The notes beneath the pieces are model-generated. The model worked only from the letters and a program-made list of their open reading frames with translations, had not been told where the DNA came from and ran no database searches. Shown in pieces: positions 31,206 to 37,030 of a stretch of 44,060 nt of DNA (position 1 is the first letter of the stretch; the number at the start of each line of letters is the position of its first letter). This stretch comes from Chloroflexota bacterium. Its GTDB lineage: Bacteria > Chloroflexota > UBA11872 > VXOZ01. Location of the stretch: NCBI GenBank assembly GCA_022824225.1, contig JAJEAH010000065.1:1-44060 (forward strand), given 5' to 3'. The position numbers were made by a program, and so were the translations under genes.

Positions 31206-31970
31206 TTCCCAGATTTCGTTAAGCGCAGTGCGCGACGCCGCGGCCCGGTGTAATCCCTGTGAGCCCTGTCTTCGCTGCTGAGCGCGGCGTTCTACGGGTT
31301 GCCAATCGTGGATTTCGTTGTGTAGAGCGGCAAACACGAACGATACACCCGCCTGCCGCGCAACTGCCTGCCGCCCGTCCGCTGCTCCCGGCTGCCGGAA
31401 CACGCACCGCTGACTGGCCGCGCGCTGGCGTCTTGCCAACCGGCCTTGGGGCAGACCCGCTTCTGGTTTGCGATATGGGGATTGTCTGCACACCTCATTC
31501 TTTACGCACGTGCCTCGCGTGAAGTAGGCCAAGCGCACTCTCTGTGGCGAGGCGCAGCGCCCATTTCCCCCGCCCCGAAAAGTCGCGTAAACTGGAATCA
31601 CTCCTCTGTCGTGAAAGCGTGACGGGAAACGTGAAGACTTGCGCGGTGGTGGTGGACTCAGAGCATGCGGTTGCAGAGAGTCTCGCCGGCATGTCCGGCC
31701 AAGGTATGGGGGGAGTCGCGGCCCGCGGCGGAGGTATCTCGCGCCGGGCGGCGCAGTACGCTAACTGGGGCAGGGGCGTCGCTGCCGGACGCATGGCGAT
31801 CACGGAGACTGACCGCCTCTAGCCGGCACAGGCCTCGTTCAATGCGGCGGCGTTTGCCGCAGTGCGCGCGTCCCGCAGCCGGTATACGCGGGGCGGCGCG
31901 TGCGGCGTAGAAGGCGCGTGATTCTGCTGCGGCGAACCTGCCGGCATCACGGCGCCCTGTGGGGAATGCC

Positions 31971-33686
31971 ATGCAACAGGTTGAGGGCGTAACCCATGAA
32001 CCGGAGGAGTCCGGCCCTCTCGGACCGACCCTCGGCGCGGCGTTCCAGGGCGTCCTGCTGTCCCTGCCGCCAACCGTGCTGACCATGCTGCTCTTCGCCC
32101 GCGCGTCGGGACTGGGTGACGGCTATGTAACGTGGTCCGTGCTGGCGGCGGTTGCCGTCAGCGGTATCACCACCGCGCTCCAGGCGGCGCGTTTCGGTCC
32201 AATCGGCGGCGGCAACATTCTCATGGCCGGCGCCGTTCCCAGCTACCTTGCCATCGGGCTGCTGGCTTTGGATCAGGCAGGCCCGGCAACGCTCGCCGCC
32301 CTGGTGGTCATCTCATCGCTCACCCAATTCGCCTTGGCGGCCTATCTGCCGCGTTTGCGCCGCATCGTCACACCGGTCGTCTCCGGCACGGTGATCATGC
32401 TGATTGCGGCGAGTGTCTTACCGCTTACGGTAGATAGGCTCGGGCAAGTCCCGGAAGGCGCGCCCGCGTTGGCCGGGCCGGCCGTGGCCGGCATCACGCT
32501 GCTCGCGGTTGCGGCCCTGGGGCTGCGCGCGACGGGCGCCCTGCGCCTATGGACGCCGTTGCTCGGCGTCCTGGTTGGCTGCGCTGCGGCTGCCGCGTTT
32601 GGCATCTACGACCCCACGAGCTTAGTGGAAGCGCCGTGGCTGGGCGTGCCTGAGCTTTGGCTGCCCGGCTTCGCAGTCGTGCCGGACGCGGAATTCTGGG
32701 CGTTGCTGCCCATGTTTCTGATCGTGTCCATATCGGGCGCGATCAAGGCGGTCGGGTCTAGCGTTGTGGTGCAGCAGGTCTCGTGGCGGGAGCCGCGCGT
32801 AACCGACTACCGCCGGGTGCAGGGCACGGTCAACGCGAACGCGCTGGGCTCATTGCTTTCAGGGTTGCTGGGCGTGCTGCCCACCGGCACCTACGCCGCT
32901 ACCAGCGTTTCGCTCATCAATTTCACCGGCGTGGCCGCGCGCTCAGTCGGCTACGCAATTGGGATCATGTTGGTTGTGCTCGCGCTCCTGCCCAAACCCA
33001 TGGCGCTCCTGCTCACGGTGCCTAACGCGGTCACCAGCGCCTACATGCTCATGCTCATGGGCCTGCTCTTCGTGGAAGGACTGCGCACTGTCGCCCAAGA
33101 CGGTCTCGATCAGCGCAAGATCTTGATCGTGGCGCTCTCACTGGCGGTAGGCATCGGACTGCAAGGCGACAACATCATTACGCAGGTTATTGGCGGCGCG
33201 TGGGGCCTGGTGTTGGGCAACGGTTTGATCGCGGGCGCCATGGTCGCGCTTCTGCTGACCGTGTTCATCGAGCTGGCGGCCCCCCGGCGGAAACGGCTCG
33301 AGATTTCGCTAGACATCAGCGCGTTGCCGCAACTCGATGAATTCCTGGCCCAGATAGCGGTCAACCTGGGTTGGAATGAGGAATCAGTCAACCGGCTGCG
33401 CTTGGTGGGCGAGGAGGCGCTGTCGAGCTTGCTGGGAGAACAGCTCGACGACAGTTCGCGGCGTCTGATCGTGCTGGCGCGTCCGGCTGCAAGCGTGATC
33501 GAGCTAGAGTTCATGGCGGTGTTGGCAGAGGAGAATATCGAGGACGCGCTCGCCTACATGAGCGCCCAGTCCGACGCGCCCGCAGCGGGTGAAATCTCCC
33601 TGCGGCTGCTCCGGCACTTCGCCTCCGGCGTGCGCCACCGCAAGTATCAGGGCATAGACATCGTGACCGTCGAGGTGGTGCGCTAA
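31971..33686 (+). CDS. NCS2-type purine/pyrimidine permease fused to a GHKL-ATPase-like domain
   Basis: Residues ~15-435 of 571 form a 12-14-helix permease of the NCS2/NAT (xanthine-uracil) family: FGPIGGGNILMAGAVPSYLA, PVVSGTVIMLIAASVLPLTV, NANALGSLLSGLLGVLPTGT and NFTGVAARSVGYAIGIM (equivalent of the TGVASR motif). The proton-coupled substrate is probably a nucleobase. After PRRKRLEISLD a ~135-residue soluble tail reads DISALPQLDEFLAQIAVNLG, RLRLVGEEALSSLLGE and ISLRLLRHFASGVRHRKYQG, matching the course of an RsbW/HATPase_c_2 domain but with its ATP-binding N-box Asn and G-boxes degraded. ATG 31971 has GGGGA upstream; a GTG at 31959 is possible. It stands alone. Confidence 0.85.
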   Translation: MQQVEGVTHEPEESGPLGPTLGAAFQGVLLSLPPTVLTMLLFARASGLGDGYVTWSVLAAVAVSGITTALQAARFGPIGGGNILMAGAVPSYLAIGLLALDQAGPATLAALVVISSLTQFALAAYLPRLRRIVTPVVSGTVIMLIAASVLPLTVDRLGQVPEGAPALAGPAVAGITLLAVAALGLRATGALRLWTPLLGVLVGCAAAAAFGIYDPTSLVEAPWLGVPELWLPGFAVVPDAEFWALLPMFLIVSISGAIKAVGSSVVVQQVSWREPRVTDYRRVQGTVNANALGSLLSGLLGVLPTGTYAATSVSLINFTGVAARSVGYAIGIMLVVLALLPKPMALLLTVPNAVTSAYMLMLMGLLFVEGLRTVAQDGLDQRKILIVALSLAVGIGLQGDNIITQVIGGAWGLVLGNGLIAGAMVALLLTVFIELAAPRRKRLEISLDISALPQLDEFLAQIAVNLGWNEESVNRLRLVGEEALSSLLGEQLDDSSRRLIVLARPAASVIELEFMAVLAEENIEDALAYMSAQSDAPAAGEISLRLLRHFASGVRHRKYQGIDIVTVEVVR

Positions 33687-33979: not shown

Positions 33980-34837
33980 ATGCCGTATACTGCGGACATC
34001 AGCCGGAACAACCCCGGCTGCTTCCTCTTCCTGCTCGACCAATCGGCTTCGATGAGAGAGGCCCTTGGCGGGCAGCCCGGCCTGCAAAAGATGGACGGCG
34101 CGGCCGATGCCATCAATCGGATTCTCGACGCCATCTCCCAGCGCTGCTCCCAGGGCATGGATATCCGCGACTACTTCCACATTGGCGTTATCACGTACAC
34201 CACCGACAGTGAAGGAACCCCAATACTGGCAACCGTCTTTCCCGAAACCTCTCTGCAACAGCCCTTCTTGACGGTCAGCCAGGTGGTAGACGCGGCCGAC
34301 GTGGAGGAACGGCAGGTCAAGGAGTCCGACGGGGCCGGCGGTATCGTGGAAGTTACGCGCAAGTTTCCGGTGTGGCTCCGGCCGACGGCCAGCTACGGCA
34401 CCCCCATGTGCGGGGCGCTGGCCGCCGCCGCGAGCGCCGTGGGAGCGTGGACGGAAGAACACCCGGATTCCTATCCCCCAATGGTGATCAACATCTCCGA
34501 CGGCGCCGCCGGCGATGGGGATCCTGAACCCATAGCCCAAGAACTCATGGCTCTGGCAACCAACGACGGCGCCACGCTGCTCTACAACGCGCACCTTTCG
34601 GAGGTGTCCGCACCGCCGGTGCAGTACCCGGCCGCTGAGAGCGACCTGCCTCCGGATGACTTCGCGGCGTCGATGTTCCGCATGTCTTCCGTCTTTCCGG
34701 ATCCGGTCCGCGACCTTGCGACGAGCATGGAATTGCCGGTGGTGGAGGGTTCGCGCGGGTACGTCTACAACGCCGACATGGTGGCTCTGGTGCAGTTCTT
34801 GGATATTGGGACGCGCGCCGCTTCGGATCTGCACTGA
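33980..34837 (+). CDS. VWA-domain (TerY-like) protein of a TerY-P triad
   Basis: The 285-residue VWA protein has the MIDAS motif DQSAS at D20, then MDGAADAINRILDAI, GVITYTTDSEGTPIL, PTASYGTPMCGALAAAASAV (the MIDAS Thr) and MVINISDGAAGDGDPEPIAQ. AAGGAG precedes ATG 33980. The order VWA, PP2C phosphatase, kinase is that of the TerY-P triad linked in comparative genomics to tellurite-resistance-type stress and defence systems. It likely binds a partner through a metal ion and is switched by phosphorylation. Confidence 0.9.
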   Translation: MPYTADISRNNPGCFLFLLDQSASMREALGGQPGLQKMDGAADAINRILDAISQRCSQGMDIRDYFHIGVITYTTDSEGTPILATVFPETSLQQPFLTVSQVVDAADVEERQVKESDGAGGIVEVTRKFPVWLRPTASYGTPMCGALAAAASAVGAWTEEHPDSYPPMVINISDGAAGDGDPEPIAQELMALATNDGATLLYNAHLSEVSAPPVQYPAAESDLPPDDFAASMFRMSSVFPDPVRDLATSMELPVVEGSRGYVYNADMVALVQFLDIGTRAASDLH

Positions 34838-34854
34838 TCGGCTTGCTGTCCAAG

Positions 34855-35634
34855 ATGGCCCTTCAACCCCCCAAGCAGTTCTGGCTGCCCAAGGCAGGCA
34901 ACCGTCCGGACGAATACGAGGACGCGGCCCGAGCGGTCTATCCCCAGCGCATCGGCGCGTCCGGCCGCCGCACGGTCCGGGTGGTTGTAGCCGACGGCGC
35001 CAGCGAATCCGCCTTTGCCCGGGAGTGGGCGAATATCCTGACCGACGCCTTCGTCGACCGGCCCCTCGACCTCCGCAACCTGACGGAGGAGTCCCTCTCT
35101 GCTTGGTTGGCCGCGGCGCAAGCGGAATGGCACGCCGGCGTGCCCTGGGACCGCGTGCCCTGGCATGGCGAGGCCAAAGCGCGGGCCGGGGCCTTCGCCA
35201 GTCTGTTGGGGCTGACCGTTGGGACGGCGCCGGACGACCCCCGGCGCCTTTGTTGGCAGGCGGTGGCTGTGGGGGATAGCTGCCTCTTCATCGTCCGCGG
35301 CGGTCGCCTGCAAGTCTCCTTTCCCCTGGCAGACGCCGCCCAGTTCGACAATACGCCCGCCCTGGTGTGCAGCAACCCGGCCAATGCCGGAGATTTGTGG
35401 GAAGAGGTGCGGCGCGGCGGCGGCCAATGCGCGGCGGGAGACCTCTTCATCCTGGCGTCCGACGCGCTCGCTTGCTGGTTCCTGGCCAGTAACGCCGCCG
35501 GCGAGAAGCCCTGGGAGACCCTCCAGGCCTTGAACGCGTCGCGATGGGCCGACTGGGTCACGGAGCAGCGGGACGCCGGAGCGATGCGCAACGACGACAC
35601 CACGGTGGTCGTCATCGCGGTCGCCGAGACCTGA
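34855..35634 (+). CDS. PP2C-type protein phosphatase of the triad
   Basis: The 259-residue protein shows VRVVVADGASESAFAREWAN (metal-binding Asp, D47), QAVAVGDSCLFIVRGGRLQV, DLFILASDALACWFLA and NDDTTVVVIAVAE (D247/D248), the PP2C core in order. It should remove phosphates put on by the kinase encoded next. ATG 34855 lies 17 bases after the VWA stop; TTG 34843 is an alternative and neither has a strong ribosome-binding site, so coupling is likely. Confidence 0.88.
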   Translation: MALQPPKQFWLPKAGNRPDEYEDAARAVYPQRIGASGRRTVRVVVADGASESAFAREWANILTDAFVDRPLDLRNLTEESLSAWLAAAQAEWHAGVPWDRVPWHGEAKARAGAFASLLGLTVGTAPDDPRRLCWQAVAVGDSCLFIVRGGRLQVSFPLADAAQFDNTPALVCSNPANAGDLWEEVRRGGGQCAAGDLFILASDALACWFLASNAAGEKPWETLQALNASRWADWVTEQRDAGAMRNDDTTVVVIAVAET

Positions 35635-35650
35635 GAGGTGCAGCGCAGCC

Positions 35651-37030
35651 ATGTCCTGGCCGGGAATAACCGACTTCAGCGAGGCGGTGCAAAATCCCCG
35701 CCTGTGCTTCAAGGGCACCGAGCTTGAGGGCGGAGAGGTAGCCGTTAACCAACGGGGCATGCCCTTGGTCTTTTCCGGCTCTTTCGCCTGCGTCTACTCG
35801 GTCTCGGTCGGCGGCGCGTCCCGCCATGGCGGCGGCGCGTTCGCGGTGCGCTGCTTCACCCGCGAGGTCAAGGACCAGCAGTCCCGCTACAACCAGTTGA
35901 GCGACTATCTGCTCAATGTCCTGCCGCCGGCCTTCGTGCACTTTGAGTACCTGGAAGACGGCATCAACCTCAAAGGCCGCTGGTACCCCATCGTCAAGAT
36001 GGAGTGGGTGGAAGGCGAGGTGTTGAGCACGTTCGTCGACTCCAAGCTGCAAGAGCCGGAAACGCTGCGGCGCATCGCCGCCCAGTGGCGCGGTGGCACG
36101 ACCGCCAGCTTGCGCGGGCTGCGCATCGCCCACAACGACTTGCAGCATGGCAACGTGATGGTACAGGCGGACGGCAACATCCGCCTGGTGGACTACGACG
36201 GCATGTTCCTGCCCCAGTTTCGCGGCGAGCGCAGCCCGGAATTGGGGCACAAGAACTACCAACATCCGCAGCGGTCGGCGGAAGACTACGACGATTACGT
36301 GGACAACTTTCCCACCCTCGTGGTCTATCTCAGCCTGCTGGCCGTTGCCGCCGACCCCACGCTCTGGACTTTCTACAACGACGACAACCTGATCTTTACC
36401 GGCAAGGACTACGCCGACCCCGGCAACTCCGCCGTTTTCGACCGCCTGAAGAAGTCCCGCGATCCCGCCGTGGTCAAACTGACGGAACGCCTGGAGGAGT
36501 ACTGCGCTCTGCCCAGGGTAGCGGACGTGCCGGACCTGGAGACGATTCTGCAAGACGTCCCGCCCAGCACAGCGCCGTCGTCACCGGCAACTGGGCCCGC
36601 GACAAGGTCGAAGCCTGCGACAGGGTCGAAGCCTGGGACAAGGTCCAGGCCAGGGTCCGCGCCGGGTCTGTCAGCGGTCACGTCGCGGACAGCAACGCCG
36701 ACCGCGGCCGGTCCGAGCCGCCGCCAAACGCGGCCGCCCGCGCGGCCGCCAGCGAGACCGGCCGGTTCTCGCAAGCGGCGTCGCGCCCGGAAAACCTCCC
36801 GTCACGCTCCTCCGGCGCAGCCTGCTGCCCCAGCCCCGCCCGGGCCCGCTCAGGCCTTCCGAACCGGCGCTGCCAGGGGCGCAGCCATCCCAAGCGCCAA
36901 GCTGCCGGCGTTGAATTCGCTTGCAAGAGACGTCCCAAAAGTGCTGCTGGCCGTCGCGGCCACGGTCCTCATGGTCATTGTGGTGCTCGCGGCCCTGTCT
37001 GCGTGGGCGGTTGTGCTGTACGGCTGGTAA
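35651..37030 (+). CDS. Protein kinase-like protein of the triad, membrane-anchored
   Basis: Of 459 residues, ~25-300 form a kinase fold: glycine loop FSGSFACVYSV, AVRCF in place of AVK (Arg at the usual Lys), IVKMEWVEGEVLSTFVDSKL, catalytic loop HNDLQHGNVMV at 161-171, DYDG at 181 for DFG, and GHKNYQHPQRSAEDYDDYVD. The TerY-P kinases share AVRCF and DYDG, so it is probably active in its own way or a pseudokinase. A ~130-residue Pro/Ala/Arg-rich linker with TRSKPATGSKPGTRSRPG repeats leads to one C-terminal membrane helix (LLAVAATVLMVIVVLAALSA). It begins 16 bases after the phosphatase. No ter or zinc-ribbon genes are beside it. Confidence 0.87.
   Translation: MSWPGITDFSEAVQNPRLCFKGTELEGGEVAVNQRGMPLVFSGSFACVYSVSVGGASRHGGGAFAVRCFTREVKDQQSRYNQLSDYLLNVLPPAFVHFEYLEDGINLKGRWYPIVKMEWVEGEVLSTFVDSKLQEPETLRRIAAQWRGGTTASLRGLRIAHNDLQHGNVMVQADGNIRLVDYDGMFLPQFRGERSPELGHKNYQHPQRSAEDYDDYVDNFPTLVVYLSLLAVAADPTLWTFYNDDNLIFTGKDYADPGNSAVFDRLKKSRDPAVVKLTERLEEYCALPRVADVPDLETILQDVPPSTAPSSPATGPATRSKPATGSKPGTRSRPGSAPGLSAVTSRTATPTAAGPSRRQTRPPARPPARPAGSRKRRRARKTSRHAPPAQPAAPAPPGPAQAFRTGAARGAAIPSAKLPALNSLARDVPKVLLAVAATVLMVIVVLAALSAWAVVLYGW

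Follow-up and report, generated by a model that had tools for sequence, protein, structure and literature searches.

One gene of a Chloroflexota bacterium, located in a 44,060-nucleotide stretch of DNA that was analyzed as a whole (the window), is predicted to encode an NCS2/SLC23-type carrier with 7+7 transmembrane (TM) segments fused to a GHKL domain that resembles RsbW and SpoIIAB; sequence comparison and structural modeling support this assignment strongly. On balance, we favor a role in cis for the fused tail, which would be a regulatory or structural cytosolic pseudo-kinase domain of the carrier. A search of the open-access literature found no description of a fusion between an NCS2 permease and a pseudo-RsbW domain.

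A permease with an additional domain

The reading frame is intact, remaining open from ATG 31971 (or from an alternative GTG start at 31959) to a stop codon that ends at 33686. The first-pass annotation had proposed a complete NCS2-like permease followed by a basic linker and a tail of ~135 residues, a layout borne out by this frame, by a match to the Pfam family Xan_ur_permease (PF00860), and by the APRRKR motif that leads from the last TM segment into the tail (Table 1). PF00860 is the only Pfam family matched by the window protein (E = 6.7e-38; 130.8 bits vs a cut-off of 27); the NCBIfam pbuX and ncs2 models match below their cut-offs. The PF00860 domain is shared with the NCS2/NAT (SLC23) carriers UraA, UapA, and XanQ/PbuX, and the nearest solved relatives of the permease part are UapA and UraA; sequence matches extend to SVCT1, and the full-length AlphaFold2 model (pLDDT 60) matches UraA, UapA, and SVCT1 in fold, at low confidence. 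Unlike these relatives, the window protein carries a C-terminal domain: SLC4 and SLC23 carriers have been described as lacking one (PMC6497670).

Table 1. Layout of the tailed permease gene in the window
Feature	Residues	Position	Strand	Basis or remark
Whole gene: predicted NCS2/SLC23-type permease with C-terminal pseudo-RsbW domain	571 aa	31971..33686	+	Start ATG 31971
Permease domain, PF00860 match	22-397	32034..33161	+	Pfam match, alignment
Basic linker APRRKR, last TM segment to tail (approximate)	~434-440	33270..33291	+	Translation
Predicted pseudo-RsbW (HATPase_c_2-fold) domain	~438-571	33282..33683	+	AlphaFold2, Foldseek, hhalign, profile bridge
N-box-equivalent helix LRLVGEEALSSLL	476-488	33396..33434	+	Glu481, Glu482 in 78/78 tails; Asn replaced by Ser486
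G1-equivalent region IELEFMAVLAEENIED	510-525	33498..33545	+	DxG lost; new invariant Glu513, Asn522, Asp525
G2-equivalent region GEISLRLLRHFASGVRHRKYQGIDIVTVEVVR	540-571	33588..33683	+	GLG replaced by E-I-S; invariant Ser543, Leu547, Val554, His556

An anti-sigma kinase fold

What is this additional domain? Single-sequence searches with the tail alone found no matches in Pfam, NCBIfam, or PDB sequences, and the tail profile found none among PDB sequences; the tail is linked to RsbW only by fold comparison, profile-profile comparison, and a hidden Markov model (HMM) of the tail. The AlphaFold2 model of the tail, computed with five relatives (pLDDT 77.9, pTM 0.75), has the E-H-H-E-E-H-H-E-E order of secondary structure elements typical of the GHKL fold. 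When this model was compared with the PDB by Foldseek, the top 19 matches were all anti-sigma kinases (UsfX, RsbW, and SpoIIAB; E from 1.2e-7 to 9e-5), followed by the RsbW domain of Rv1364c and then by ATPase domains of histidine kinases. These results argue strongly for an anti-sigma kinase fold, as had been proposed from the order of motifs, rather than for an unrelated one; the motifs quoted in that proposal fall at positions aligned with the N-box helix and the G2 region.

Two lines of evidence establish that the resemblance reflects ancestry. A comparison by hhalign, which does not depend on structure prediction, matched the tail alignment to a HATPase_c_2 alignment built from Chloroflexota RsbW proteins with a probability of 94% (E = 1.2e-7, score 48.8), as compared to a maximal score of 16.5 and a probability of at most 1% in 60 column-shuffled controls; and the tail-only HMM detects a free RsbW (locus L146) over model positions 3-129 (E = 3e-7), as well as the free RsbW proteins of L147 and L148. 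The homology between the tail and RsbW is therefore real. The tail shares with RsbW, SpoIIAB, and UsfX (HATPase_c_2, PF13581) the fold, the order of secondary structure elements, and an N-box helix with a conserved Glu, and can be aligned with them across almost its full length; unlike them, it lacks the Asn, DxG, and GxG that bind the nucleotide, is fused to a membrane carrier, and is not detected by the Pfam model itself.

Loss of the nucleotide boxes and new invariant residues

The absence of the N-box Asn and of clear G-boxes, first noticed in the window gene, turned out to be a property of the entire tail family. We aligned 78 tails together with 22 RsbW proteins: the N-box Asn is present in every RsbW (22/22) vs a single tail, that of L036 (L036:1489-3228, EETLTNLL), and is replaced by Ser, Thr, or Ile in the others. 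The G1 Asp (21/22 RsbW proteins) gives way to Ala, Val, or Thr, the G1 Gly (22/22) to Phe, Ser, or Ala, and the G2 GxG, with both glycines present in 22/22 RsbW proteins, to Glu/Asp-x-Ser, in which the Ser is found in 78/78 tails. By contrast, all 78 tails, like the RsbW proteins, retain the N-box Glu; in the tails, this invariant residue adjoins the position of the lost Asn.

Could the tail be an active ATP-binding kinase or ATPase with unusual motifs? The invariant Glu of the N-box helix, at whose aligned position anti-sigma kinases have their catalytic Glu, speaks for this idea, but the Mg-binding Asn, the Asp and Gly of G1, and both glycines of G2 are gone, making retained catalysis very improbable. 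Weak nucleotide binding may persist in a few members, given the N-box Asn of L036.

At the same time, the tail has acquired invariant residues of its own. Across 56 proteins, these are Glu481, Glu482, Glu513, Asn522, Asp525, Ser543, Leu547, Val554, His556, and Asp563, and the alignment places Glu482, Asn522, Asp525, and Ser543 at the former nucleotide-pocket positions. When the window gene is compared with close relatives, dN/dS (NG86) is 0.14-0.20 in both halves, and the mean pairwise identity among the 56 proteins is 48% in the membrane part and 49% in the tail. Because the boxes are lost, new invariants are present, and purifying selection is as strong as in the permease half, the tail is predicted to be a conserved pseudo-kinase under its own constraint, not a domain in decay.

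Distribution and origin of the fusion

All PF00860 (NCS2) proteins of this genome, four paralogs in total, have the tail. Among 133 tail matches in open reading frames of at least 250 aa from the fetched loci, 132 are joined to a permease in one frame, although several of these loci overlap and the 132 fusions do not represent as many independent genes; the remaining match is a free RsbW. The genome survey with the tail profile covered the Chloroflexota, in which 31 of 400 genomes have a match, and the Rhodothermota class to which locus L008 belongs, with matches in 25 of 245 genomes, three of which are to a free RsbW, leaving ~22 with tailed permeases. In 41 genomes of the class that includes the genome of the window, almost all NCS2 proteins are tailed in four of five families, the tail-free exception being G011:C9 (467 aa), and all are tail-free in the fifth (f2). 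The other NCS2 proteins of Chloroflexota are mostly 440-520 aa long and lack the tail, and a search of viral contigs and plasmids for the tail found none. The first-pass annotation had raised the concern that the tail might be a frameshift artifact. If the tail were read by chance, or if a frameshift or misassembly had merged two adjacent genes, the same accident would have to recur across two phyla, in dozens of genomes and contigs that are independent of each other, with purifying selection acting in the shared frame; an artifact or chimera is rejected on these grounds and is next to impossible.

How often did the fusion arise? When 57 tailed permeases and 25 without a tail are placed in one tree, the tailed proteins lie on one side of a single branch (support 92/91; present in 91% of bootstrap trees), and the fusion probably arose once, in the ancestor of the tailed clade. 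Within this clade, tailed permeases occur as tandem pairs in L022, L025, L026, L031, L137, and L159, where heterodimers would be possible. A diverged subclade (L039, L045-L051) has Lys259 and an L-P-V-S-A-P-W motif; it is adjoined, at least in L049, by an FtsH-like gene and TilS, as named by sequence reading. Separately, an NCS2 protein with a 589-aa frame (G233:C7:395589-396695) is not matched by the tail profile; it possibly ends in a strongly diverged tail or in a C-terminal domain of another kind.

Substrate of the permease half

UapA binds its substrate via Glu356, Asp360, Gln408, and Asn409. Unlike UapA, the window protein has Lys259, Ser263, Ala310, and Thr311 at the aligned positions, thus lacking both the substrate-site acid of TM8 and the Q-N signature of TM10. 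The register of this alignment comes from UapA and from paralogs that keep E-T-I-G-D (L003, L036, and L058; L053 has E-T-L-G-D), and a pairwise alignment with UraA slides by four residues in this region. Lys prevails at the Glu356 position in the family (43 of 56 members), followed by Gln (7) and Glu (4). As the substrate-site residues differ from those of UapA, the name nucleobase permease is unjustified: the substrate need not be a nucleobase. In UraA, an E241A/H245A/E290A triple variant serves as a transport-negative control (PMC11362169).

Does the tail act in cis or in trans?

If the tail no longer acts as a kinase, why has it been retained? The first-pass annotation envisioned a ligand- or partner-binding regulator that couples nucleobase uptake to signaling. 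The first part of this proposal is a plausible candidate role, to which the invariant residues of the tail lend weight; the second part fares poorly at both ends, given the Lys at the UapA Glu356 position and the gene neighborhood. STAS and RsbW homologs were sought beside all tailed permeases examined and none were found, whereas a partner gene of this kind lies beside nearly all free RsbW loci that served as a control; coupling to signaling is therefore unsupported.

The lack of such neighboring genes also weighs against a model in which the tail is a receptor in trans. By binding a partner, such as a σ factor, an RsbV-like STAS protein, or the SulP carrier of this genome via its STAS domain, the tail would relay the state of the permease to another transporter or to the control of gene expression. 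The model has its attractions: the fold is that of a natural binder of STAS proteins and σ factors, the tail has invariant residues of its own, and potential partners exist. This genome encodes a single Rsb-like operon (receiver-PP2C, RsbW, and STAS), which holds its one free STAS gene, and one SulP-STAS carrier, ~6.5 kb from a tailed paralog; the window gene is not among the genome matches to PF01740 (STAS). However, four to six tailed paralogs per genome would have to share one or two STAS partners, and the conserved neighbors of tailed permeases are of other kinds: DUF1330 (PF07045) genes, upstream or downstream of the permease at 22 of 84 distinct loci, and an alpha/beta hydrolase at 14 loci in both phyla, each in a separate tailed subclade. 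We consider a receptor acting in trans rather unlikely. Quite improbable is the more specific scenario in which both halves of the partner switch independently became tails of 7+7-TM carriers, STAS in SLC26 and pseudo-RsbW in a clade of SLC23, with the latter still binding STAS-type proteins; if it were true, the carrier would directly control, or be controlled by, a SulP carrier or a network of partner switches. It also seems unlikely that the tail is a sensor whose remodeled pocket would bind, on the cytosolic side, the solute being transported or some metabolite and so provide feedback on transport: invariant polar residues (Glu482, Asn522, Asp525, and Ser543) stand in place of the nucleotide boxes, but they could also serve domain docking.

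Other features of the neighborhood were recorded. Directly upstream of the permease (window positions 31631-31920) lies a DUF1330 remnant with small indels and an in-frame stop, and L005 and L010 have an intact DUF1330 gene at the equivalent place. The alpha/beta hydrolases L002:231-1139 and L159:3646-4560 are similar, their linkage being kept across Chloroflexota and Rhodothermota. Downstream, a row of genes for VWA-like, PP2C, and protein-kinase-like products (window positions 33980-37030) resembles TerY-type VWA/PP2C/kinase triads; these genes were set aside as functional partners, the synteny being shared with the closest relative, L005, only.

In the cis model that we favor, an RsbW/SpoIIAB-like domain would have been joined to a permease, with ATP binding and kinase chemistry lost later and the domain kept as a pseudo-enzyme. 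On the cytosolic side, the tail would hang beneath the last TM segment and touch the membrane domain, the other protomer of the dimeric carrier, or both, and this contact would stabilize the carrier or tune its elevator cycle; the old nucleotide pocket, with its four invariant polar residues, would be the likely place for docking or for a small ligand. Conservation suggests that the tail may regulate the carrier and not just stabilize it. SLC26/SulP carriers, which belong to the same 7+7-TM superfamily, offer a parallel: a cytosolic domain with a signaling fold directly follows their last TM segment, and this C-terminal STAS domain enhances transport and is dispensable for dimerization (PMC6497670). 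By analogy, the tail of the window protein may play the same regulatory role. Unlike in SLC26/SulP, the membrane part is SLC23-like, and while the STAS tail has the fold of the antagonist SpoIIAA/RsbV, the window tail represents the opposite half of the switch, SpoIIAB/RsbW; it would occupy the place of STAS with the fold of its classical partner.

Implications

In the lineages that have tailed permeases, proteins annotated as uracil/xanthine permeases may hide carriers of other solutes. The tail would be an anti-sigma pseudo-kinase that was recruited to the membrane, a rare occurrence, and an SLC23 tail with the fold of a STAS partner, present throughout a clade, would provide a natural test of cytosolic regulation in 7+7-TM elevator carriers.
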